Positions 7,001-53,529 of a DNA stretch of 53,529 bases are shown piece after piece. This stretch comes from Spirogloea muscicola. Lineage: Eukaryota > Streptophyta > Zygnematophyceae > Spirogloeales > Spirogloeaceae. The notes under the pieces are model-generated. The model saw nothing but the letters and a program-made list of their open reading frames with translations, made no database searches and was not told the origin of the DNA. The stretch spans positions 28,256-81,784 of the forward strand of contig WELB01000314.1 of assembly GCA_009602725.1 (NCBI GenBank), in the 5' to 3' direction. The translations under genes and the position numbers were made by a program. How positions within the stretch are numbered: position 1 is the stretch's first letter; each line of letters begins with the position of its first letter.

Positions 7001-7886
7001 AGAGACTGCCAGCGACGAATGCAGGCTGTCTGGTTGCAGTGCCTGCCCTTATCTGCTGCTCAATTTCAGTGAGCCGCCTGTAGGCCTCAATATCTATGTT
7101 AGACCGCAAGCCGTGATACTCAATTCGTACCCCGATGCTGCACATGCAGCCCATGCTGCAGGAGTTGGGCAAACAAAATCCCCAGCTGCTGCAGCTTATC
7201 AATAGCAACCAGGGAGAGTTTCTTCGTCTTATCAACGAACCTGGTGATGGTGGTGCTGGGTAAGCCCGTGATCCACCTGCGATACCAATAATCACAACAC
7301 AAGAGGGATGATAATCATGAGGACTCTGGCTAGCTCTGCTGGCATCTTGCTGTTTGACGATGTTAGCCTTTCCTGTCACTTTGAAGGCAGGGCTTCTTCA
7401 CTTTTAGAGTCGCTTAAGGGAAGCTTGCTATTGAGCCTACTATGGGGCCGGGTGTTGCAAGATAGCGAAGATGAGAATGTGACCTTGCCTTCACTCTCTG
7501 CAGGGATATGCTGGGACAAATGGGTGGTGGTGCACCCATGCCGCAGGCTATTAATGTCACCCCTGATGAGAAAGAAGCCATTGACAGGGTATGATGCGGC
7601 TCTGAAGGGCTGATAGCTCTTGCATGCTCATGAGACAGAAGTGCAGCTAATGTGATAGTCATGAGTTGAGCTTTTGTTGTCATTCTTGGCGTGTCTGACA
7701 TCAGTCATGATACCCATGGTGCCACTGCGCTGTTGTCTCTGATATGAGCATCGAATCTGTTGGTGCCAGCTGGAGGCGATGGGGTTTGACAGAGCGCTCG
7801 TCATTGAGGCATTTTTTGCGTGTGACAAGAATGAGCAGCTGGCAGCTAACTACCTACTTGAGCATGGCCAGGAGTACGATGACTGA
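4026..7886 (+). CDS. RAD23: RAD23: ubiquitin-like/UBA proteasome shuttle and NER factor
   Basis: Carries ubiquitinated substrates to the proteasome and stabilises XPC/Rad4 in nucleotide excision repair. Twelve exons join in phase to 422 residues: 4026-4091, 4286-4447, 4865-4912, 5209-5291, 5540-5620, 5798-5981, 6179-6388, 6642-6716, 6951-6998, 7150-7259, 7504-7588, 7770-7886. Order of domains: N-terminal ubiquitin-like domain (about 1-77, [20 protein letters not shown]), Ala/Pro/Ser linker, UBA1 (about 160-205, [18 protein letters not shown]), second Pro/Ala linker, XPC-binding/STI1 domain (about 290-352, [20 protein letters not shown]), and UBA2 at the end ([20 protein letters not shown]). 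This is the full family architecture at the usual length. The intron after 6716 starts with GC. The start is the first ATG and opens the UBL fold directly. Confidence 0.95.
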
Positions 7887-18085: not shown

Positions 18086-19195
18086 TTAAGAAGGGCCATG
18101 TGGTGCACTTAAGCGCAAGCCATTGTAGAGGACACGAGGTGGTGCTTCGTACCCTGGGAAGCTACTGGCTTTGAAGGGGTAAGACGAGAGGAGTTGCAAT
18201 CTTCCAGTTTGAAGTGCAAGGTCTGTCACATGCCACAGGCGGTATGGTTTTCCATTCTTGATTGCCAGGTGGAGTCTGCCGTCACGATGAAGTAGAGGCA
18301 CTGCTGACAGGAAGAAATTGAACACGAGCACTTTGTTCTTCCACACATTGACATCCTGGTCCTTGATGCCGCACCCAACATGTGGGAAATTGAAGACTAT
18401 CCTGTCACGACGATGCCAGTATCAACCATCAGTAAGAATTGGGTTACCTTTGCTTGGGCACTCGATGGCGACCAGCTAGCACTGCAGGCAACAGGATTTT
18501 CGGTACACAATGAGAGCTGAAGTGCTTGAGATCCCTATAGGTGAGGCTTTCTTTGACCTGTCAAATGGCTCATCGGTGACACATCGGGTGCCCTGCTTCC
18601 TCTTCCTCTTGCCTGTTGTGCCAAGAAGCTGCAACTCTCAGCAGCTTTCCAAGAAGGAAGGCATATGGCTAGCCCAAAGGGAGGCACTGCCACGAAGCAG
18701 TCAGTGGTGGCGCAGCATATGGTGAGCGGAGTTGAATATAGATCAGCAGTAACGTGCCTGACAAGCACAACCTTCATGCAGCCCCTGTCTGCTGAGGCAG
18801 ACAGTGTATAATATCTGGCAAGCAAGCTGCTCACCTACATGTAGGCATTGGCCAAGTCGGTTTGCATCTACACCAAAGAGGACTGTGGCCCCAGTAGCCC
18901 TCAAGTCATCAACAATGTTCCGCCCACTGCTATATTTCTGCCGCAGGAAGCAGCATGACTTTTAGCAGATAAGAGAATGAAGCAGACCGGCACCGCAAGA
19001 TGGTGCTCAGCACTATAACGACGATCTTGGGGTGGAAACTGGTCACTATGACAAGACAACGGTGTAGTGGAGACATGCCTCATAGACTACATCCTCCAAA
19101 TCTAAGGTTGTCGCCACAAGGCCAGAGCCGCTGCCAATCAGCCATGCGAGGGCCAGGCTGAAGCTGAAGTCCCCCTCTCCAACAAGAAGAATTCT
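18086..19195 (-). CDS. 25S rRNA (uridine-N3)-methyltransferase, BMT5/DUF2431 family (5' end unresolved)
   Basis: Rossmann-fold methyltransferase of the family that contains yeast Bmt5, which makes m3U in large-subunit rRNA; presumably nucleolar. Clear minus-strand exons: 19195-19079 with the SAM-binding start RILLVGEGDFSFSLALA and ATTLD; 18937-18839 (KYSSGRNIVDDL, ATVLFGVDAN); 18401-18086 with the hallmark RIVFNFPHVG and HRDGRLHLAIKNG, LSSYPFKASSFPGYEA to the stop. The first two join in phase 0 if the intron uses GCATGT as donor (GC-AG). A piece ending CCCAAGCAAAG before 18448 fits the phase 2 needed before 18401, but a small exon joining it to 18839 is missing from my model. Upstream, ATG 19883 (MGKKWKVHGPAWRRAAAAAV, GC-rich) is a plausible true start; the exons between are not resolved. 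Confidence 0.8.
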
Positions 19196-24513: not shown

Positions 24514-25859
24514 ATGGCTGTACACTCAGCAGACATGCTTCTCCTGTACACCAGACTTGAGGACAAGATCATACCTGACGGTTTCTGGAAAGGCATGCTT
24601 CAGCCCGTACTGGCACTTGCATTAGTTGCAGGAGCTATATGTATTTCTGTATGGCAAGGGCTAGGACTCAGTAAAGACATGGCCTACTCTGTTACCCGCG
24701 CGTTTGTTCAGGTTTGTACTGTACTACCCATAAGGACGCAAATGCTTGCCGTCATCCTTGTTTACTGTGCCCTCTAGCTCCTGAGGAATGACTATGTGCT
24801 TACCACACGTTATTGCCAGACCTTGTACTGAATTAAGGACTGTTAGCAGCATAGTCAAGGGTATTCGAATGGAATTGCTGCTCTTCCAGCTCACAGACAT
24901 GCTCCCTGTGTTTGCAGCTCATCATTGTTGGATTCCTCCTTGACTTCATCTTCAAGGAAAATAGGACAATATGGATATTTGTTGCCTATGTGATGATGGT
25001 GAGGTGCTTTGACATTCAGAAACACATGTTGGCAGGCGACATTGACTAACGGTGTCAGTGAAATCCTTGCATCAGGGGGTAGTGCTTATGTTCTGCCATG
25101 GCAAGCGGGTCACTAGAGGATTCTCTCAGGCTGGAGCAAGTGGCTGTGCAGACTGTTGTGGCAGGCTCCACCGCAGGCAACAGAGCCAAACTTGTGCCAA
25201 AGGCTCAGGCCATTGCTACTATATCCATCTTGGCGGGGACGGCCATCTGTATGAGCGTCCTGGTAGCTCTGAAAATCTTCGAGTTCACGCCGCGCTACAT
25301 TATCCCCATTAGTGGCATGATGGTAGGCAATGCCATGACTGTGGTTGGCGTGACTATGAAGCGGTTGCGTGAAGACATACGACAGCAGCAGCAGCTGATT
25401 GAGGCTGCTCTGGCACTGGGAGCAACTCCAGGCCAGGCCATCATGAAGCAGGTATGCTCACCTCGGACTTTCTTGCAGCTGCACGGCAGCTGGAGCTGAT
25501 GGCGACCAAGTTGTTATGTCGAGTGGTCAGCATTGAATGTTTGAGTGCTTAGCATTGAATGAAATCAGAATTCTGAGGCTTCACTCCTTGGGCAGGTCCG
25601 GAGGTCATTGACTCTTGCATTGGCGCCTGTTTTGGACAATGCAAAGACAATGGGCTTGATCTCACTCCCCGGTGCAATGACGGGCCTCATCATGGGAGGT
25701 GCATCACCTTTGGAAGCCATACAGTTGCAGATTACTGTGCTCAACGTGCTCATTGGGGCCGCCACCTTCAGCTCGCTGTTGGCCACCTACCTTACCTGGC
25801 CCCAGTTTTTCTCCGGTACTTATCAGCTCAAAACAGAAGCTCTTTTCGCAGATTCCTAG
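24514..25859 (+). CDS. ABC transporter permease, ALS3/STAR2/FetB family (UPF0014)
   Basis: Membrane partner of the STAR1/FetA-type ATPase. Exons 24514-24711, 24918-24998, 25152-25451 and 25596-25859 join in phase to 280 residues, the normal family length. Several hydrophobic segments are visible: MLQPVLALALVAGAICISVW, LIIVGFLLDFIF, IWIFVAYVMM, ISILAGTAICMSVLVAL, YIIPISGMMVGNAMTVVGVT, and a C-terminal pair around TGLIMGG and ITVLNVLIGAATFSSLLATY. Family hallmarks are TVVAGSTAGNRAK, the cytoplasmic IEAALALGATPGQAI and SLPGAMTGLIMGGASPLEAI. In plants the complex acts in aluminium tolerance; in bacteria the pair exports iron. Substrate here is unknown. The alternative ATG at 24535 would shorten it by seven residues. 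Confidence 0.9.
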
Positions 25860-31035: not shown

Positions 31036-31313
31036 TCCCTTTCCATTCGCTGTAGCCACTTGCATAGGGCACCACCACTGGCTGGTAACTGCGCCTCATT
31101 GCGGACGTTGTCACGACTGACGCGTGCGACCGGGCCAACCCCACTGCGACCGGGCCAACCCCGCTGTATCAGAGAGACGGCTCGCCCATAGAAAAAGAGG
31201 GGCTAGCAAAGCCAGCCCAGAAAAGATTGGACAATGGCCGCAGGCTTTAAAGGCCACAAAACAATGTCCGGAAAGTCAAAACTACACACCAAGACACGAA
31301 ATGAGGCAAGTGG

Positions 31314-34028
31314 ATGCTCAGTATCCACCAGTATCTGCCTCCGAGGCAGGGCATGCAGTGGCCAGTGCCGCTCGAGGCAAAATCTGCTGACCATCCGCCG
31401 GAGGACAACTTCTTCCCCTTACCACCTCTTCTTCCCCTTTCCACCTCAGAGGCTTCAGCTGTCCGCCGGGCCATTCGTTTTGGCCGAGCAGGGGACCTGT
31501 CCCGTGCTGCCCAAGCTCTGGACCCAGCCACCCCAGCACCTCACGATGCAGAAACCCTTGCTGCTCTCAGGACCCTCCACCCCCCTGCCCCAAGCCCCCT
31601 ACCCCCCTGGCTCGAGGAGTTTCAGCCCCCAACCATGGTGGACCTCAACCCAGCAGCTCTGCGGACAGCGTTGGTGCAGAGCCGGAAAGCAGCGGCTGGA
31701 GGGCCCTCGGGCATGCTCTTTGAACACCTTCGAGAGCTCTGGCTCGACGATGAGGCAGGTGACTTCAGTCTGCTGCACAAAGTGTGCCAAGCGGTGGCGC
31801 GCGGCCTCCTTCCACCCAAGGCCCGGGCAGCACTCACCAGCAGCACCCTGCTCGCTCTCTCCAAGCCCACCGGAGGCGTCCGACCAATTGCGATGGGCGA
31901 GGTCCTTACCCGACTGATTTCCAAGACCCTATTCCAGCAGCACAAAGAGGCGGCGCAGCTCCACTTCTCCCCCCACCAGTTCGGCGCAGGGCTGTCTGCG
32001 GGCGCGGAGACAGTGGTTCACGGTCTACGTGTTGCCCTGGATTGCAATCCCGATTGGATGGCCCTGTCAGTGGACGTGAAGAATGCATTCAACAGCGTTG
32101 ACAGAGGTGTCATCGCCGAGGAGCTGCGCACGCATTTTCCCTCCCTCATCCCTTTCTTCCGGTGCTCCTACGGAGCACCCTCCCGCCTGCTCTGGGGAGC
32201 GGGCACGTCACAGGTGGTCTTGCAATCCAGCACAGGCACCCGACAGGGAGACCCTTTGGGCGGGTTCCTCTTTGCATTGGCACACCTACGTGCGCTGCGT
32301 AATACGGCGGAGGCCCACCCTGCTGTCCTGATCCCAAGCTACGCCGACGACACCACCCTTGCGGGACCCCCAACTGAAGTCACCAGCGCTTACAGCACGT
32401 TGGAGCGCGAGCTTCACATCCTCGGCCTCCACATCCGGCCTGAGAAGTGTTCAGCCTGGTCTCCAGCCGGCATCCCTCCCTCCATCAAGCTGCCGGCTGG
32501 GTGCCAGACCCCACCACTCGGCATGGTGGTGCTTGGAGTCCCGTTGGGGGCTGCTGCGCATGTGGAGCAAGTTGTGGAGTCCACCCTTGAGAACCATCTC
32601 CAGACCCTCCCGGCCCTCCCCTCCTTACAGGATGCGCAGCTTGCGGTGGCCATCCTCACCCGGTGTGTGGCCCAGCGTCCCACTTACCTGTTGCGGACTG
32701 TACCCCCCACCACGGCACTAAACGCCATCTACTCTACCGTGGACTCCAGACTCCAACAGGCTCTTCACGGCCTGGTGGACCATCCCAATTTGTCCGCCAC
32801 GCCGGCTGCCATCCTCCAGTGTACCCTTCCTACCAGCATAGGCGGCCTTGGGTGCCGTCCACTGGCTCGCCTGTCCCAAGCAGCTCACCTGGGTTGCTGG
32901 GCCCAAGTGGCCTCCACCATCTCCAGTCGCTTCATCCTGAGGGGCCAGGCTGTTTTAGCACCCGCTATAGCGGGTGTTGCAACAGGGACCAGGCCCTTCC
33001 AGCTTTCCCTAACCGCAGCACTGCATGACCTCTCGTGCTCCCTACCAACACTTGCCGAGGGTCATGCAGATTTTGCGGCATGGGCACGCTGTTCCGATAG
33101 GAAAGCGCAGGCTCACTACACACACGCTGCGGACGTGCAGGCCGCCTCCGACTTGAAGGGACTGCTCAAGGACGATAGACGTGGCCTTACCCGGCTCCTT
33201 TCAATCGGCTCCCCGGGCGCGTCGGAGTGGCTAAACGCTCTGCCGATCTACGAGTCCCTTCGGCTTTCTGACAACCTTTTCCGCACGGCGCTCCACCACC
33301 ACCTTGGCCTCCCCCCCCCTTGCTTGGCTGGCATCCGCCAGTGCGAGTGTGGCCACATTGCCGACGACAAGCTCGCCTTAGCTTCGCACATGCTGAGGTG
33401 TGTTGAGGGGGGTGAGCGCATTGCCTCCCACGACCTACTAAGGGATACCATGTTTGGCATTGTGCGAGAGGCGGGATATCATCCGGCGATGGAGGTGTCT
33501 GGGATCATGCCAATCTCCTCAAGGCGCGGCAAGCCATACGTGCGGCGTCTGGACGTGGTCGCTACCCCGCGGGGCGGTGGGCCTCGTCTGCTCTTGGACG
33601 TGGTACTGATCGACGCATACAAGGCTGGCGCACCAACGTCAACCGTGTCTGGCTGGGCCACGTCCAGCGCGGAGCGCAAGAAGGAGCGGCACTACCATGA
33701 TCATCCTCGAGGGGACCATCTTTACCCGTGTGCCATGGATATCTATGGAGGCTACGGCGTGAAATGGTCCTCCCTGATCCAGCATCTGGCCCGGCTGGTT
33801 GATGCGCGTCGTCGAAGTCGGGGGGGCAGCTTGGGCCACTCCAGCATTCCGCAGGCCTTAGTTGCATATTATAGAATGCGGCTCTCGCTTAGTTTGCAGC
33901 GCTCGCAAGCATTGGCTCTTCATCAACGTGCAGGGCGCGCTCTAAGTCAGGCCTCCGGCTTTCGTGGCGGCGCTCCAGCTCCCCAAGTTAGCTTGTCAGA
34001 TTTGTTTGTGCTCACCCGTGGGTACTAA
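31314..34028 (+). CDS. LINE ORF: reverse transcriptase with restriction-like endonuclease
   Basis: An uninterrupted 904-codon ORF of a non-LTR retrotransposon. RT motifs: SVDVKNAFNSVD (motif A, Asp about residue 254), GTRQGDPLGG (motif B) and YADD (343-346). After the thumb comes a zinc motif CECG..H..C, then a PD-(D/E)XK-like site: RRLDVVATPRGGGPRLLLDV (Asp about 747 and 762) and KKERHY (about 789), the order seen in R2-type elements. The ORF ends SLSDLFVLTRGY. Catalytic residues look intact, so this copy may be active or recent. The listed ATG is doubtful: bases before about 31330 belong to an inverted tail of another copy, and similarity with the dead copy begins near 31440 (AVRRAIRFGRAGDLSRA). 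No N-terminal zinc finger or Myb domain is seen, so the element may be 5'-truncated. Confidence 0.9.
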   Translation: MLSIHQYLPPRQGMQWPVPLEAKSADHPPEDNFFPLPPLLPLSTSEASAVRRAIRFGRAGDLSRAAQALDPATPAPHDAETLAALRTLHPPAPSPLPPWLEEFQPPTMVDLNPAALRTALVQSRKAAAGGPSGMLFEHLRELWLDDEAGDFSLLHKVCQAVARGLLPPKARAALTSSTLLALSKPTGGVRPIAMGEVLTRLISKTLFQQHKEAAQLHFSPHQFGAGLSAGAETVVHGLRVALDCNPDWMALSVDVKNAFNSVDRGVIAEELRTHFPSLIPFFRCSYGAPSRLLWGAGTSQVVLQSSTGTRQGDPLGGFLFALAHLRALRNTAEAHPAVLIPSYADDTTLAGPPTEVTSAYSTLERELHILGLHIRPEKCSAWSPAGIPPSIKLPAGCQTPPLGMVVLGVPLGAAAHVEQVVESTLENHLQTLPALPSLQDAQLAVAILTRCVAQRPTYLLRTVPPTTALNAIYSTVDSRLQQALHGLVDHPNLSATPAAILQCTLPTSIGGLGCRPLARLSQAAHLGCWAQVASTISSRFILRGQAVLAPAIAGVATGTRPFQLSLTAALHDLSCSLPTLAEGHADFAAWARCSDRKAQAHYTHAADVQAASDLKGLLKDDRRGLTRLLSIGSPGASEWLNALPIYESLRLSDNLFRTALHHHLGLPPPCLAGIRQCECGHIADDKLALASHMLRCVEGGERIASHDLLRDTMFGIVREAGYHPAMEVSGIMPISSRRGKPYVRRLDVVATPRGGGPRLLLDVVLIDAYKAGAPTSTVSGWATSSAERKKERHYHDHPRGDHLYPCAMDIYGGYGVKWSSLIQHLARLVDARRRSRGGSLGHSSIPQALVAYYRMRLSLSLQRSQALALHQRAGRALSQASGFRGGAPAPQVSLSDLFVLTRGY

Positions 34029-34621: not shown

Positions 34622-37034
34622 ATGTCGCGCGTGTACGTCGGCAACCTCGACCCCCGCGCCACAGGCCTGCTCCGCCTCTCCCTCCATCCCCCTCCCGCTG
34701 CCGCCCGCCCGCACCTGCGCAACTCCCCCTCCCCTCCGGCGCTCTTGCTGCTGGCGTGCAGCTGCCCGCCCTGCGCTTCGCCCTCACTCCTCACTGCCTC
34801 TCGACCGACACCTTGGAAGAAGTCGCCACACGCCCCGAAGCTCGCGCCTCCTGCCTGCGTGCCCGCTCACCATGCCTCCTCCCGCGCTGGCCTCTGTACA
34901 GAACGGGAGATGGAGGACGAGTTCCGCGTGTACGGAGTTCTCCGCAGGTCAGCCTCCCTGTCCCGCGCGCAAGCGTGCAGTTTTGAGCTTGTTTCCCGAT
35001 CTTGCGAGTCGGTGCCGTGAAGACGGACGAGTTCTTGGTGACAAGGCTGCCACGTGCTCAATGAAGCGCCGCACTACCGCGCTCCTGGCTCTGCAACCTT
35101 ATCGGGCCTCTATGTGTCTGGGGCTTACAGCGTCTGGGTCGCACGCAAGCCCCCTGGTTTTGCCTTCATTGAATTTGAGGACCGCCGCGATGCTGAGGAC
35201 GCCATCAAGGGCAGCAATGGTAACCGCGGTCTTGATGCCCAGCTGCCCTTCATGACGTGCAATCTACTTGCTCGCCTTCCTCGTTGTTGTCGGGCGCCCT
35301 CATTACAGAAGCAGACAGTGTCATGTTCTATGGTAGCCCTGGGCTGCCAGCCTTGCCTGCCCAGCTTGCTGCCAGTGTTCGTGTGGTGTACGTTGTAGTT
35401 GGACGACCTTGAGCTGTGACATCGTGCCTGCTCAGCCAAACTGCTCGTCCTAATCGCAGGTCTTTTTCTGCGTATGCATGCACCTGCTGTGCAAGGGCCA
35501 TGATCCTGCTTAATTATATATATCGACATGTGCATTTCTGGTGCTTCTGTTACCACAGGCAAGAATGGCTGGCGGGTTGAGATGTCTCGTGGACCTGGTG
35601 GTCCGGGGGGTGGCCGAGGAGCTGGTCGTGGTGGCGAAGAAATGCGGTGCTATGAGTGCGGAGAGCCTGGCCACTTCGCCCGTGAGTGCCGCCTGAGGGT
35701 GGGTGAGGCTGGCATTGGCGGCCCAAGGACTCGACCTCGCAGCCGCAGCCGCTCTCCAGCTCGCTACCGCCGCAGTCCCAGCTATGGTCGTGCCAGGTGA
35801 GAGATGGTCTGTTGTGCACGCCCCTTCCTGACCTGTCTGCTTCAGACTGTCCGGTGCTTCTATTTGGGCCTGCTTTTGCTCGGAGGCCATGGTGGCCGCT
35901 GGTCTGGATGTCCGAGCAGATACCAGTTTACCGCTCTTTGTCGAGTACTTGTCTTGAAGCAGACGTAGGGAGGTTCACAAGGGCTCTAGGTCTATCTTCT
36001 CGATGTCTGTGCTTGTTCCACATGGCCCTCGTTGTTCTGATGCACAACACGTGCTTTGGCTGGCCACGGCGGCTCAATGCATGCAACCCTGTCTCTCCCT
36101 CCTCATAAGCTCCGCCCAGCCCCGTGAGGCGGCCTAGGAGTCCTGGATACGATGAGGACCGCAATGGTCATTCCAGCCGGCGCCATCGTAGCCCTAGCCC
36201 CGTGTATCGTTCTCGATACCGAAGCCCTGACCGCAGGAGCCCTCGGCAGAGCAGGAGCAGGAGTTATGACAGGTACGGTTGACGGCCTAAGATGTCCTTC
36301 CCTTCTACATTGGCAGTGCGGTCGTCACAAGATGCAGGTGCCACTTCCATGGCAGGTGCACAGGTAGTCTCTTGGACAGCAGCATCCTCACAGATGGTTC
36401 CACCCACCTGCCAAGCTAAGCTGGCCTTCCATGTTCGACTTAGGGAAGCTCAAGATGCCTTTGGTGTCCACTGACAATGTCACAACAATGTCGTCTTCTG
36501 ATAGCAGCCCTCCCCGTCGAGCGGACTACTCGCCAAAGCGTCGAAGCAGGTCGCCTCCTCCTCGCCGCCGCAGCGTGAGCCGGTCGCCACCACCTCGTCG
36601 CGACCGATCTCCAGCAGCCAATGGGTGAGATATAGAAATATACAGCCTTGCAGTGGGTGTGGGTCAGACAAAGGGCACTGGTCGGCACGCGTGCGCAGAA
36701 TGCCAAGAGACTAAAGCTGTGACTAGTACCGTGGCTGATAGTCTGCAGTATGGTCAGATGGAAGCTTGGGCGCCTTGCAGAAGCCTCCTACTGTTGTCAT
36801 ACTTTCTAAGTCCCAGTTCAATCGGTTCTCCTGTCTGTGGTCTTGTGATCGGTGGCAACTCAGTCTGTGATCCGATATAGTACGTCCCCAGTTGATCCAG
36901 TTGATCCAGTTGATCAGCTTCCCGGCTTCTATGGCCTCGTTTGGCCAGCTCACGTACCTCGTCCTGCTCCTTGCAGGACCCCTCCTCCAAGGCGTCGCAG
37001 TCGCACACGCAGCCGCAGCCGCAGTCGGAGCTGA
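34622..37034 (+). CDS. RSZ-type SR splicing factor (RRM, zinc knuckle, RS domain)
   Basis: Plant-type relative of SRSF7/9G8 (RSZ21/22 group), a nuclear pre-mRNA splicing regulator. Exons 34622-34664, 34902-34947, 35131-35219, 35559-35796, 36120-36272, 36505-36624 and 36977-37034 join in phase to 248 residues. [15 protein letters not shown] (RNP2), then ..[34 protein letters not shown] (RNP1 region) and [10 protein letters not shown]; Gly/Arg linker; zinc knuckle [14 protein letters not shown]; then a long RS/SPRR-rich tail ending [11 protein letters not shown]. The first intron must begin GCCTGC after the codon for Thr14 (homology and phase leave no GT choice), a rare GC-AG intron of unusual sequence. 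The promoter region carries the inverted repeat element described upstream. Confidence 0.93.
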
Positions 37035-39102: not shown

Positions 39103-39294
39103 TGAACGACATGCGGCCCGCGCGTCTTCCCTCTCATTGGTGGGACTGTACAGTGCCTGTAACTTGCTCTTTCACTCTTTCATTGCTCACTCTTGGGTAC
39201 CGGAGACGCCCTAGCCCTAGCCCTAGCTGATTGCCCCCGTAACCAGGACTTCAGTAAGGCCTGGAGACTTGGTTTAGGGTTTCGGGTTGTCTCC

Positions 39295-39856
39295 ATGGCC
39301 GCCGCCGCCGCCGCTCCCGCCCCGCCGCCGCCCGCCCTCGCCCGCGGCTCNTGCCGCGGCCGTGTCCCGCCAGGTGCGGCAGCTAGGCCGCCAGGGCCGC
39401 CTGCGGGACGCCCTCGCCGCCTTTGACGCGCTGCAGGGCGCGGGCGTGGGGCCCGACGTCGTGGCCGTCACCGCCCTCATGGATGCCTGCGTCCGCTGTG
39501 GCGACGTCGCCCGAGCCCACCGCACGTTCAACACCTTCTTCACCGGCGCCGCCGCCATGCGGCCGGACGGCGTGGCCCTCGGCGTGCTGCTGAGGGCCTA
39601 CGGCGCCAGCAGGCCGCCGCAGTGGGGCAAGATCACGCAGCTCCTCGACGTCGCGGACAGGTCCCTCCTGGTGGTGCCCTCTCTGGCGGTCTACAACGAG
39701 CTGCTGGACATCTGCGCCCGAGAGAACAACGTGGACAAGGGCCAGCAGCTGCTGGAACGCATGAGGGCGGCCGGCCTGCAACCGGACTCCCTTACTTTCA
39801 GAGTCGTGTCGCGGCGCAAGGCCCTGCGCAGTCACTTCAAGAAGCTCTTTGCTTGA
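39295..39856 (+). CDS. Small PPR protein
   Basis: Pentatricopeptide-repeat proteins bind organelle RNA. Single exon of about 186 residues, with roughly three to four 35-residue repeats: GRLRDALAAFDALQGAGVGP, VVAVTALMDACVRCGDVARA, VALGVLLRAYGA, VYNELLDICARENNVDKGQQ and LLERMRAAGLQPDSLTFR, then a basic end SRRKALRSHFKKLF as in several plant PPR proteins. The Ala/Pro-rich N-terminus could be part of a transit peptide. The undetermined base at 39351 makes the length 562 bases, not a multiple of three; without it the frame runs open from ATG 39295 (GSAAAVSRQVRQ), so the gene is probably intact. Confidence 0.8.
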
Positions 39857-43710: not shown

Positions 43711-46111
43711 CTAAAGGCGCGTGCACGAGAGGTCAAAGTCGTCAGGCGCGAGCCGAGCTAGCCACGCCGCCAGCAATCGCTTGGTCGCGCCGCTGTCCGC
43801 GCTCGCCAGCTCATACATGGAGCACAGGTCCAGTATGAGCGTCTCCTGCAATGACACCAGCGGGCTGCGCTGCAGAGCGCCCTCCAGCACGCCGATCGCA
43901 CCCAGCAGGTCCCGTCCGTACATCAAGCACAGCGCCTGACCAGCAGACAACACATGGGACCACAGGACTCACTGTCAGGCCACCAGGCCCGCTGTGCTGC
44001 CTAGCGTTCCAAAGGGTACAGGCGCAACACCCGATTTGAGATGACGGGAGGTCTTGTTCAGCCGCTTCTGTACGCTCTACGCCCTGCCAGAGAGAACAAC
44101 CACCCCCGTCCATGTGCACCTTTGACTTCCGGCCTCTCAAACATTACACAGCGTGGACCTGCTGCAAGGAAGACGTAGAGGAGCAGTTCATCGTCATCAC
44201 CTTGTTGTTGACAGCCACAACATTGTCAGGGTCCAGCTTCAGAGCTGCATCGAGCTCCACAAGCGCTGCCGAGTACTGCTTGGTGGCAAAGTGCAGAAGG
44301 CCGCGGTTCAGGTAGACTAGTGCCACAGTTGGGCCGGCACTCTGCTCCACCTCCATAAACGTAGCCTTGGCGCCTTCCAGGTCGCCCATCTGCAGCTGGA
44401 CATACCCGTACTTTGCCTGCAGCAGAGCTAAGTTGTTAGAGATTGTCACTCACCTTCGAATGACCTGTGCAAGGTGTTGCCAACAAGTCACACCCAGAGC
44501 TTCCTAGCTAAATGCAAGCCATCTCTTGGGGCCACGGTGCCTGCTCAGGGTAATACCGGCTCCTGTCACAGGATCAGCTTGTGGAGTTGACCTGGATGAC
44601 GGGATCACCAGGATGCTGCTCGACCAAGCTGCCCAACCACTGAAGCGCGACAAGAAAGTCTCGCTGAGCCAAGTGGTGATTGAGGACAGAAAATATCACG
44701 ATCTCCTGTCGCTTGCGCCACTTCTTCAGAGCTGGCATGCAACATCCAAAAGGCTGCCACTTTGTCAACGAAAGCAAGGAGGGAAGCACTGAGTGGATGA
44801 CACACAGGCTGCTGTGAGTATATAACCAACTTGCTATATTTCGGATTCCAGGATCTGCAGAAAGCCCAGTGGTATGCACTAACCTCTGTCTTGTAGGGGT
44901 GGGACCAATGTTGTCAATCTCCTCTCATTTCCATCCTCAGCCTCATCTGGACCGGCATTCCTTACATCCTCCGGCAAGTCTTCATGTCCTCGACTAACTG
45001 CTTCTTCTTGGGCTCTCATTGTGAAGTGGGCAATGTCACTTGCTGTTGGTGAGGAGGTTGCACGTGACATCTTTGCGTCCTCCTCGATCTGCATACCTGC
45101 AGCTTCTCTTGCAAGAGCAGAAGTATCCAAAGTTCCACTGGCTGGCGGAGAGGTCACAGGTGCTGCCTGCGGGATCTGCTTCGCAGATTGTTGCCTGCAA
45201 TGAGCCCAGCAGCATGGAGGGAAACCTGAGACTATTTCAGCAAGAGGTGCTACTTGGAGTCGTCACACCTGAAGCACAGCATGCCCTGAAAGCTGTCAAG
45301 CAGCCTTTTGCACTGCAGCAAGCTGGATTTAGGCTCAGGAGAGAGGCTAAGCATGGGTTGAGAGCCCTACACAATATTGACATCTGCTGATGTTGCTGCA
45401 GTGATGGCAGGGAGACTGAGCTTGCTCTTCTCAGCAGCACCTAGCTCATCAAGCTGCGGGTGTATTACTGTCACAAATCAATGACATTGAGACAAGAACA
45501 GAAAGAAGGGCCCCTTTGTAGAGGCATCACCTGCCCTTTGATGGCATTGTAGCAGTCACACACCACAAGCGAGGGACACCCTGAGCAGGACAACATCTTG
45601 TGCTTACAAGTCTCACCTTTGCATTGCAATGTGCCAGGAGTGCGTACAGTCGGTCTATGGTGGTGGCCGTATGTCCTAGCCTGTGTGGTAGCTCCGCATG
45701 AAGCAACCTCAGAGCAAAGGGGACCATGGAGCCTGCACTGTTTATGGTCAAAGGCATGAGCCAGTTGTCCACCTCCCCAGAAAGAAGGGTGATTGCTGAT
45801 CAGCTCTGGTCCCACCCAAGTCATTCTGTTCCTAATCACCACACTCACGGACAATCTTGTGCCATGTCTATGGTCTCAGCGATTGGAGAGATCGCATTAA
45901 AAAATCAGGCAGAGCAAGCAAGACAGCAGCAGCAGTGTAGCTGCACAGTACCTTGCTTGCTCGGGTAGGAACTGGGCCAAGATTCGTAGCTGTATTTGGC
46001 ACTGCCCAAGTCACCTTGCGCTTGGAGCTCGTCAGCTGCTGCCCCATACATGCGCAGCTTTACAAGCGCGAGGACATGGTATGCCGTGTACAACAGCTGC
46101 TCATGAGGGGG
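43711..46111 (-). CDS. TRAPPC12: TRAPPC12 homologue, TPR subunit of TRAPP tethering complex (5' end not resolved)
   Basis: TRAPPC12 acts in ER-Golgi vesicle tethering. Minus exons joined in phase: 46111-45952 (PHEQLLYTAYHVLALVKLRM, GNLD-like GDLGSAKYSYESWPSSYPSK), 45732-45617 (GSMVPFALRLLHAELPHRLG), 45166-44884 (Ser/Glu-rich insert), 44731-44592 (ALKKWRKRQEIVIFSVLNHH), 44416-44201 (KYGYVQLQMGDLEGAKATFM, VYLNRGLLHFATKQY), 43935-43711 (ALCLMYGRDLLGAIGVLEGA, LDLCSMYELASADS). The YPxxxGSMVPF and TPR order match human TRAPPC12 closely. The exon at 46111 may extend further upstream, and the N-terminal half is expected between 46112 and about 47570, where I cannot fix exons. Confidence 0.85.
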
Positions 46112-50420: not shown

Positions 50421-53373
50421 TCACAGCGCAGATACGGGTAGGTCGTGGCTGAAATGCAGCACGCTCTTGCCAAGGAGATAATCCATGGCGGTATTGCCTT
50501 GCTGGAAGTAGCTCGACTCAGGCTGCACAGTCCAGGCCACGGCAGCATCAGCACCTTGGACCACTCCAAGGGCACAATGCTTCTGCTGGCAGACGCCGAA
50601 CGCAAGGTGGAATAACTTACTGAGAGTCGGCGCTGCTGACGAAGCAAGACCACCCAGCAGGCGGCAAGGGCCAGGAACACCCAGATCTTGGACAGCAATG
50701 GTCGTGGCTGCAGGTGCAACCAAGCCAGGAGCTTCGACATGCGCTTGGTCCGGCGACCAGGCAATCCTGATCCAGAGCGCATCATGAGGATTATGGCAAT
50801 GGCAGCGGTGACGAGTCCCGAGAGCAGGACAACAAGGAATGTGACGCCGTAGCCTGGCTGGATGAACACTGTCGTTCCCTCTGGCGATGGCATAGGTACT
50901 TTGAGGTCAGCCGGTCGAAGAAGAGCCCACGTTGCACAAGCCCACTCCATGCATGTTCCGGTCAAGAACACGAAGCTGGCTCCCATCCAAGTCTGAAGAA
51001 CAGAACAAGAAGCATCTCGTACATCAGCTCCACAACAGGAACACACAGACTGGCCCGCTTCCTTCCGGCCAACATGACACCAGCGCCATGCATGCTTTGT
51101 GCAAATGGATGTGCTTACCAAGCTACGCCGCCGACTGAGCCGCAGATCTGCAGCCTCGGGTGTCGTGACTTTGCCTCCGCTCGCTTCGCCTGTCGCTGAG
51201 AGCATTAAGAAGAGCCCGGCAACTCCCCAGAGAGCAAATGCAAGCCACAGGATGACGCGCGTGAAGTAGCCGGCAAGGCGGTACTGCCTGTGAAGACGAA
51301 ATCAAGTAAGACCAGCAATCGGCATTCGCATTTTCCAGAAGCACGATCAACCGTTCTTGCTGACAAGGCAGCGGGAGCGCGAGGATGCAGTCGACCTGGG
51401 CCTTGATATCACGACGAGCTCTGCCGTGTGCAGCCATGGAGGGTCAGGACAGGAGGCACTGCGAGCTGCATTATCGCCCAAACCAACGAGGACTCTCAGA
51501 CGAACTCGGAGACTGACCTGCCCCAGCGAATACGCTCCTGATCAAAGACAAGGTACTCGGCAAGCTCTGATATTGGCAAGGGCACTCCTTGCACGATGCG
51601 CTCCCTGTACTGTCTGTTGTACAAGCCAGAGTACTTGCCGTGACCATTCCGCCCCTGCAATGACGGGGGACAAGGAGAAGCTCACATGGTGGCCACACTG
51701 GCTTGCTTCAGGCTGGAACGAGCCCAGCTCGTCTATGTGTGCGGACGTCTCCAACAGACCCGCTTCTGACACTATGCCCCAAGGAGCACCGCCGCCTGTC
51801 AAGGTCCCTCGCACAAACTTGCCGTTGCCTCGGACCACCGCATCAGCTGCCAGACCAATCGCTCAGGCTACCCACCTGCCCTCCGAGCCAGCTGTAGTGC
51901 TCGTTGAAGACAATGTTGCCTTCCTGTTGGTGTGTGGGCTCCCCAGTCAGCGTGTAGTTGACCCCCCGCAGCCCCACGTTCATGCCCATGGTGCAGTTTG
52001 TGAGCTCATCGGCGAAGGGGTGCAGAAGTACCTGGACCTTGGCAGTATCTGCACGACAGCAAGGCAAGGTGTAGGCATGGTCAGCACGCATGGCGCCCTT
52101 CACGTGTGCACACACCCGAAGTCGGAACTCGCGACATGGACATGACTAAGGGCGTGGACCGTGGACTACACACACCTCATGCTTTTAGGGTCAACAACAC
52201 TGCATTTAAGTGGGAGTCACGGGGCATCTCTAGCGAGCCCCGGAGTTCATGGAGACACAGCCTAGCCACTTGGGAAAGAGCTCTCTGCGGAAGGATGCTG
52301 GGCAAGGCTGGCAGAGGATGGAGAGGTGCAATGTTCCTCGAGGTGGTGCTAACCATGGTCCCACGTGTATGACCACTGAGATGCAACAAGCAAAGCGGCG
52401 ATGTACAGGTAGTACGTCACAGCGAGGGGGGCGAGAGCGAAGCGAAGCTTTTCTGTGCGTTGCAATCTCCTGAGGTGGTACTGGTCTGCACACGATTAAC
52501 AGGGAGAGTGAAACCTCGGCCGGCTGGGCCGCCACAGGCTCACCCGAGAGTGGCAGGCTCAATGGCCCCCCTCGGCGCGTAGACGAGTAGCGCAACCAGG
52601 CGGCGGTGAGTCGCATGTCCTGGCTGCTGAAGGATTGGACTTGTCATGCCACCCCAACCACTCACCGGGGTGGAGTGTGTCAACAGTTGCCGCAGTCGGC
52701 GGCTTGCGGCCCCTCACGTACAGGAAGAGCAGGGGCCACAGGCTCACAAGTACACAGCCAAAGGCGTACCCAATGCCTGCGCATCGCAGAGCGAGCGCCG
52801 CACAGCAATGTCACGGCAAGTACAGCCCGGAAAATGGCTCCCCATCCGACCTCGCCTGACCCCTGCTCGTGCTAGCACGTGCGGAGACGGCTAGAGAGCC
52901 GGTCGTGCGGCGGCCGGGAGCAGCCTCCGTGGAGCGCGGATGTCGATGGCAGGCGCAATGCACGGCCGCTAATAGAGGGGTAACGGCAGGGGCAGCGTGC
53001 CTGCAAGCTTGACATCGGCGCGCCAGTCCGTCCAGTGCGTCCCGAAGTTGGCGGGCTGCCGGTCGTAGTTCGCGAGGCCGAGGTAGGTGATGAGGCCGAT
53101 GACGCCGCTGGCCAGGACGAGCAGCACCAGGAACTGCGCGCACTTGCTCTTCTGCGAGGCCAAGCCGCTCCGGTGCGGTGCGGGCGTCAGCTTGCCCTCG
53201 CTTCGGCAGGGCGGAAGGGCAGCGCGCGCGCTCGAGGGGTCCGGTCGAGGGCGGGCGGGGCGCACCGCGTGGCTGCGCTCGGGGGGCGGGTTGGCGGAGT
53301 CGATGGTGGGCGCGCTGGCGGCGGCGGCAGCGTCGTCGGCCGTGGTCCGGAGCTTCATGCTGCTGCGCCGCAT
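50421..53373 (-). CDS. DUOXA-like protein (dual oxidase maturation factor family)
   Basis: In animals DUOXA brings dual oxidase from the ER to the cell surface and is needed for H2O2 output. Eight minus exons join in phase to 532 residues: 53373-53001, 52776-52666, 52452-52354, 52048-51876, 51654-51518, 51287-51119, 50992-50621, 50585-50421. Membrane segments at about 78-100, 126-146, 166-186, 309-328, 357-379, 403-425 and possibly 457-471. The extracytoplasmic part between the third and fourth has NCT and NYT glycosylation sites (212, 225) and the family signature MNVGLRGVNYTLTGEP, IVFNEHYSW, then RERIVQGVPLPISELAEYLV and RQYRLAGYFTRVILWLAF, in the same order as animal DUOXA. The N-terminal 77 residues and the C-terminal tail are extra. 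The first intron starts GCACGC (GC-AG). A nearby start at ATG 53358 is possible. Confidence 0.82.

Positions 53374-53415: not shown

Positions 53416-53529
<114 letters not shown>

Follow-up and report, generated by a model that had tools for sequence, protein, structure and literature searches.

We analysed a 53,529-nt stretch (the window) of the genome of the streptophyte alga Spirogloea muscicola, positions 28256-81784 of contig WELB01000314.1 (C314) in a 153-Mb assembly of 471 contigs, at the end of which a preliminary description had placed a gene of the DUOXA family. The gene is very probably a true DUOXA, and its partner would be a dual oxidase (DUOX) encoded head to head with it just beyond the window, a pair known here from the genes alone. 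Animals produce hydrogen peroxide with DUOX and DUOXA, in the thyroid among other places, and the finding of such a pair, kept by selection, in a streptophyte alga raises anew the question of how old the thyroid-type oxidase is. Coordinates without a contig name refer to the window.

The family of the DUOXA gene was analyzed with profile PF10204, which matched it exon by exon in the genome. The spliced core, 414 residues that begin just after position 53151 and leave out the last exon, scored 140.1 bits (E 9e-41), the cut-off being 23.3. Known relatives for the comparison of DUOX and DUOXA were the sequences of the Protein Data Bank (PDB), in which animal DUOX is represented by human and mouse. 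There, with matches accepted to E 10, the core hit DUOXA1 of human and of mouse (E 6e-18 and 1e-15) and nothing further, and in NCBIfam it had no match, as expected of a prokaryote library. The search with PF10204 had been proposed as a check in the preliminary description, and it confirmed the assignment, with DUOXA1 as the sole match in PDB; membership of the family stands independently of the DUOX neighbour. The motifs quoted there (GLRGVNYTLTGEP, VPLPISELAEYLV and RQYRLAGYFT) are present on the minus strand. As in DUOXA1 and DUOXA2, the protein has a claudin-like loop, a motif of the LGGVNITLTG type with the N109 sequon, and QYRLAG before the third transmembrane helix (TM3), and its gene has a divergent DUOX neighbour. 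VGLRGVNYTLTG aligns with VGLGGVNITLTG, and the claudin-like loop keeps the N109 sequon; the Asn of NYT in exon 4 aligns with the glycosylated N109 of human DUOXA1, whose glycan contacts both subunits according to passages of PMC7794343. The algal protein differs from DUOXA1 and DUOXA2 by an extra helix at the N-terminus and possibly another close to the C-terminus, and its part after TM3 was not confidently alignable with DUOXA1 by phmmer. Proteins of the family have five membrane helices; the hydropathy profile of the algal one shows six separate peaks, one of them extra and N-terminal, and a seventh helix is possible by prediction.

Profile searches of the genome, which work exon by exon and which a finely split gene could escape, detected PF10204 at three loci, on C314 and on two sister contigs compared with it, C68 (copy B) and C300 (copy C). 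The NAD_binding_6 profile PF08030 also gave three matches at E 0.001 (11 candidates scored), all of them in copies of DUOX. Each lies 12-13 kb from a DUOXA copy, on the opposite strand and divergent from it (3/3). A DUOX with an N-terminal peroxidase-like domain, which the preliminary description had recommended looking for in the same genome, was found as the divergent neighbour in three copies. The distance between the conserved start of DUOXA (C314:81406) and the first visible codon of DUOX (83540) is 2.1 kb, with 1753 positions given as N, and by the assembly the genes are about 2.1 kb apart or less. The human pairs are divergent too, and a passage of PMC2871058 gives 135 bases as the distance from DUOXA1 to DUOX1; this work cites Grasberger and Refetoff 2006, a paper with "eukaryotic operon equivalent" in its title. 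Both genes are under purifying selection in the three copies.

The DUOXA gene (Table 1) runs on the minus strand from 53373 to 50421, with eight exons and 543 residues; the bounds and the exon count of the preliminary description stood, and its length of 532 residues did not. The frame, which had been called unbroken, runs open from 53151 to the stop codon in all three copies, with the same length in each, and the ratios of non-synonymous to synonymous change (dN/dS) are 0.16-0.22. The first 222 coding bases (53373-53152, around 74 residues) are not supported as coding by the sister copies: in C68 this region is out of frame, and the downstream frame meets a stop right before the conserved part, and in C300 it is partly N and its readable part also contains a stop in the downstream frame. 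The conserved part starts right after the GCAG at 53151. One intron had been described as GC-AG; the first intron is of this type in the three copies. The last intron has only 35 nt, compared with 118-430 nt for the 26 introns of DUOX. In the tail, the spliced frame showed 6-8 silent to 7-9 replacing changes and fits the substitution pattern best; an unspliced tail after 50620 was disfavoured (3 silent to 11-12 replacing changes). An extra exon at around 52631-52545 joins in frame (by eye) in some copies only and was left out of the model, since without it the three copies share a single frame. This stretch, on the minus strand within intron 2, has 4 variable columns and one gap in 87, versus 41/243, 60/306, 32/224, 40/236 and 23/126 variable columns in five other DUOXA introns; it may be an exon used alternatively or a regulatory element.

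To build the DUOX gene, open reading frames were read and exons were joined at splice sites conserved between the copies. The model (C314:83540-93874, plus strand, just past the window) has 27 exons and 1788 residues. It has an open frame in C314, in C300 without the missing exon 1, and in C68 from exon 8, where a gap ends. All 26 introns have GT-AG borders wherever a copy is sequenced, dN/dS is 0.09-0.13, and each pair of copies shows 0-3 gap columns in the exons and 83-191 in the introns. A few choices within the regulatory loop (acceptor 90177 or 90249; the exon after 90500) were made by splice scores and are uncertain. In Pfam, the spliced model matched An_peroxidase (PF03098) with 407 bits and E 1e-121 over residues 95-618 (profile positions 3-518 of 530), and also Ferric_reduct (PF01794, E 6e-7), FAD_binding_8 (PF08022, E 2e-15) and NAD_binding_6 (PF08030, E 5e-23). 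With an animal-haem-peroxidase domain fused to a NADPH oxidase (NOX) core, the modelled protein is a dual oxidase, the fusion being read from the gene model and not from cDNA. The RBOH mark PF08414 (NADPH_Ox) was not found in the DUOX model. The peroxidase half scored 408 bits with DUOX1 and 229 with the next protein, and the NOX half 280-282 bits with DUOX1, 159 with NOX5 and 151 with NOX2. In unrooted trees of five sequences each, the alga grouped with DUOX1 with a support of 100 (peroxidase) and 97 (NOX), its identity to human DUOX1 being 40% and 36% in the respective halves. In the intron between exons 21 and 22, 43 bases (C314:90597-90639) are identical in the three copies.

The roles of individual residues were taken from passages of the work on human DUOX1-DUOXA1 (PMC7794343), and the positions of the algal DUOX were mapped by alignment. 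The four haem histidines of the NOX core (H1130, H1144, H1225 and H1238) are kept, as are H1148 and R1087 of the oxygen site and both C118 and C1165, which bridge the peroxidase domain to the membrane domain; the aligned NOX5, NOX2, lactoperoxidase (8s6c) and DdPoxA have no Cys at these two places. Cation site 1 is kept (T332, R395, D397), and so are T170, W172 and D174 of cation site 2, in which D109 is replaced by Glu and S176 by Gly. The algal protein further shares with animal DUOX1 and DUOX2 a signal-like N-terminus, the peroxidase homology domain, a helix at the place of M0 and the NOX core itself. Its C-terminus, ETF or EAF, resembles what we take to be ENF in the human protein.

The peroxidase-like domain of human DUOX1 lacks the haem-ligand histidine, as stated in a passage of PMC7794343. 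The alga keeps a proximal histidine at the place of human S331, like 8s6c and DdPoxA, and at the distal place it has Glu, where 8s6c and DdPoxA have His and the human protein has Ser. The pattern of an active haem peroxidase, with distal and proximal His, was not found, the distal one being replaced; from these residues, binding of haem by the domain appears possible and classical peroxidase activity doubtful. In comparison with lactoperoxidase, myeloperoxidase and DdPoxA, the domain has the same fold by sequence and the same proximal His, but differs in the change of the distal His to Glu and in its fusion to NOX. The algal RGEENP stands where myeloperoxidase presumably has RASEMP.

The regulatory loop of human DUOX contains a PH-like domain and two EF-hands, according to a passage of PMC7794343. 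In the algal DUOX, the EF_hand profile gave no match at E 1, and an EF-hand loop pattern was absent both from the protein and, for each of the three copies, from all three plus-strand reading frames of the regions scanned. The pattern recovers both loops of a human segment. PH-like and EF-like parts could be placed in the algal loop by eye, tentatively. An exon at C314:91136-91387, conserved in the three copies, encodes a ubiquitin-like stretch. The algal protein differs from animal DUOX1 and DUOX2 in having no EF-hand loop that we could find and a ubiquitin-like stretch in loop 0, and we call it a variant DUOX because EF-hands, a usual DUOX feature, were looked for and not found. Land-plant RBOH and NOX5 have the same NOX core, but they carry EF-hands and have neither a peroxidase domain nor a DUOXA partner. 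Since no EF-hand loop was found, calcium would not switch the algal DUOX directly, and we infer a DUOX-DUOXA complex that makes H2O2 without a direct calcium switch.

Several observations weigh against the assignment of the pair. The start codon of DUOX is hidden in the assembly gap, and gaps remove exons 1-7 in copy B and exon 1 in copy C. In raw identity over the NOX half, human DUOX1 is about equally near to NOX5 (38%) and to the alga (36%), alga and NOX5 being at 32%, although tree and bit scores speak for DUOX. Moreover, the alga does not keep E41, R50 and R507, which belong to the tetramer interface in the human complex, and D1128, which holds the FAD ribose in the human enzyme, is Leu in the alga. 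The region corresponding to the PH-like domain (PHLD) and EF-hands gave no phmmer match to DUOX1 among the matches listed (60 of 264). The ubiquitin-like match is weak, with E 0.12 in Pfam, below the cut-off; single-ubiquitin PDB chains reached E 0.006-0.06 among the matches listed, the best being an engineered variant, and the much lower E of polyubiquitin chains comes from summed repeats. By most of the features examined, the two genes are a DUOX-DUOXA pair and would work like one.

By analogy with the human complex, DUOXA would bind the peroxidase-like domain of DUOX and would enable the maturation of the complex and its transport to the surface membrane. There, DUOX would pass electrons from cytosolic NADPH through FAD and two haems to oxygen on the outside, giving H2O2, while the divergent arrangement would let both subunits be made together. 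Calcium would not be the direct switch of the enzyme, which may be controlled through the altered regulatory loop carrying the ubiquitin-like stretch. As a guess, the H2O2 could serve in cross-linking of wall or mucilage, in signalling or in defence, the part played by RBOH in land plants.

A partner other than DUOX, which the preliminary description had considered, is not needed with a DUOX gene as divergent neighbour. That DUOXA serves such a partner, the DUOX next to it being incidental, is very improbable: we found no direct support for it, the alga retains the cysteines specific to DUOX as well as the glycan site of DUOXA, and the three DUOX copies are the sole NAD_binding_6 matches that the exon-by-exon search found in the genome. 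FAD_binding_8 gave six matches, the three DUOX copies and a second triplet (C197, C355 and C271), whose examined copy, on C197, resembles a ferric reductase of the FRO type by motifs read by eye. The genome gave no match to PF08414, but neither did any of 14 control genomes, so that this does not prove the absence of RBOH.

The family is known mainly from animals, which might suggest contamination of the assembly with animal DNA; in view of the surroundings of the genes, we regard this as practically excluded. The three copies can be aligned blockwise over around 30 kb, with 88-95% identity in the long blocks and 81, 85 and 91% in three short ones (158-279 bases), and eight further blocks (around 28 kb, 86-90%) link the window to C68. 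The GC-AG intron is common to the three copies, and conserved exons of a UPF0014 protein, which we take to be ALS3-like, and of a pentatricopeptide repeat (PPR) protein in the window, with an ECM29 exon downstream, accompany the pair. The UPF0014 and PPR exons, both conserved in C68, tie the locus to a plant-type genome. The preliminary description had also argued against contamination, from the introns, and the diverged sister copies and their conserved surroundings bear it out.

The genome is that of a photosynthetic organism, with 68 exon matches to the light-harvesting profile PF00504. An LHCII protein scored 444 bits with 8htu and 7xqp, which we take to be from moss, 402 with 6kac and 383 and less with 8bd3, presumably from Chlamydomonas and a Chlorella. 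It was also closer to land-plant chains than to 6kac or 8bd3, its top match being a 620-residue LHCI-2 chain (9vfj_2, 555 bits over two stretches). A chlorophyte origin was disfavoured by this affinity to moss and land-plant chains over those of Chlamydomonas or Chlorella. GRAS genes, which mark land plants and Zygnematophyceae, gave 92 exon matches, several in sets of three contigs such as C53, C160 and C91. The algal type of genome that had been proposed was thus recovered from the light-harvesting exons, the affinity of LHCII, the GRAS genes and the UPF0014 and PPR exons. The triplet loci and the LHCII match are consistent with Spirogloea muscicola, for which a recent whole-genome triplication has been reported (Cheng et al. 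2019, as cited in a passage of PMC9065682). A virus was considered as the source and rejected. Searches with the DUOXA and NOX queries in viral contigs, and with DUOXA in contigs of prokaryote genomes, gave no relative, these scans finding close relatives only.

The preliminary description had suggested an ancient, wider role of the family in the maturation of NADPH oxidases; our data are compatible with it and do not prove it, an old horizontal transfer being the alternative. We hold it evenly balanced whether the pair goes back to an early eukaryote, with losses in land plants and most other lines. The deep divergence from animal DUOX of both halves in the small unrooted trees agrees with this, as does the proximal histidine that the alga retains and human DUOX1 has lost, whereas many losses would be needed and the comparison covers human and mouse as animal DUOX and no other algal member. 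Acquisition by an algal ancestor from an animal or another eukaryote, followed by triplication with the genome, is plausible, though we would not call it probable. In its favour, the two genes of a head-to-head pair could travel together on a single fragment, and passages of PMC9421330 limit their account of the DUOX clade to metazoans; they give unclassified NOX-like proteins as the only ones of Chlorophyta and RBOH as the only ones of land plants. Against a transfer stand the 33 modelled introns, the altered regulatory loop, the extra DUOXA helix and the long branch of the alga, with 40% and 36% identity to DUOX1 beside 38% between DUOX1 and NOX5; this branch makes a recent animal source unlikely. 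A DUOX label is also in print for a prasinophyte transcriptome, among genes of Pterosperma cristatum, given in a passage of PMC11217555 with no sequence analysis alongside. With the sequences compared here, ancient inheritance and old gene transfer appear inseparable.

A broader scenario is more speculative, and we consider it rather unlikely as a whole: the module would predate animals, would have persisted in the line of algae nearest to land plants and would have assumed or retained RBOH's role there; the EF-hand calcium switch would have been lost and a ubiquitin-like domain would have taken over control; and the peroxidase-like domain would hold haem through its proximal histidine, as an intermediate toward the haem-free vertebrate form.

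In the open full-text literature, as far as titles, abstract openings and passages go, with subscription papers, preprints and protein databases outside the scope, no description of a DUOX-DUOXA pair in a green alga was found. Passages of PMC3591440 describe DUOX with EF-hands and place algae in a preNOX group, and those of PMC7072856 give plants only NOX5-like NOX besides FRO. Surveys that name RBOH by three shared domains, as a passage of PMC10834447 does, would count the algal DUOX as RBOH. The alga would offer a natural DUOX without EF-hands, with which the switching of the NOX core could be studied, and its peroxidase-like domain is one that may have retained the ability to bind haem.

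Table 1. Features of the window, with positions counted from its first base.
Feature	Position	Strand	Remarks
DUOXA exon 1 (bounds of the preliminary description)	53001-53373	-	53001-53151 conserved in three copies; 53152-53373 doubtful
Extra N-terminal membrane helix QFLVLLVLASGVIGLITYLGL and loop	53001-53151	-	Helix by hydropathy
DUOXA intron 1	52777-53000	-	GC-AG in 3/3 copies
DUOXA exon 2	52666-52776	-	Membrane helix corresponding to animal TM1 by position only
DUOXA exon 3	52354-52485	-	Helix aligned with DUOXA1 TM2, before the claudin-like loop
DUOXA exon 4	51876-52048	-	Claudin-like extracellular loop with GLRGVNYTLTG
DUOXA exon 5	51518-51654	-	Remainder of the loop, VPLPISELAEYLV
DUOXA exon 6	51119-51287	-	QYRLAGYFT and membrane helix TM3
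DUOXA exon 7	50621-50992	-	Final helices (two hydropathy peaks), basic stretch in between
DUOXA exon 8	50421-50585	-	Tail and stop, after the 35-nt intron
UBA match	7743-7883	+	Conserved exon
BMT5-like methyltransferase match	18089-18421	-	Conserved exon
UPF0014 exon	25083-25856	+	Conserved in C68
Zinc knuckle match	35504-35797	+	Conserved exon
PPR protein exon	39278-39853	+	Conserved in C68
TPR match	44147-44449	-	Conserved exon

Other features were observed in and around the window. A plus-strand frame of 907 residues (31305-34028) belongs to a retroelement, with a match to the reverse transcriptase profile PF00078 (E 5e-15). Downstream of DUOX, the exon of the proteasome component ECM29 lies at around 98.8-99.7 kb of C314 and is followed by HEAT-repeat exons. 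The window ends in a run of 112 T (53418-53529) that abuts the N gap, beyond which DUOX begins on the plus strand; the upstream region common to both genes thus extends past the end of the window. This run at the gap edge is probably an assembly artefact; homopolymers end other gaps too, poly-A at another locus and poly-G in the C68 copy of DUOX.

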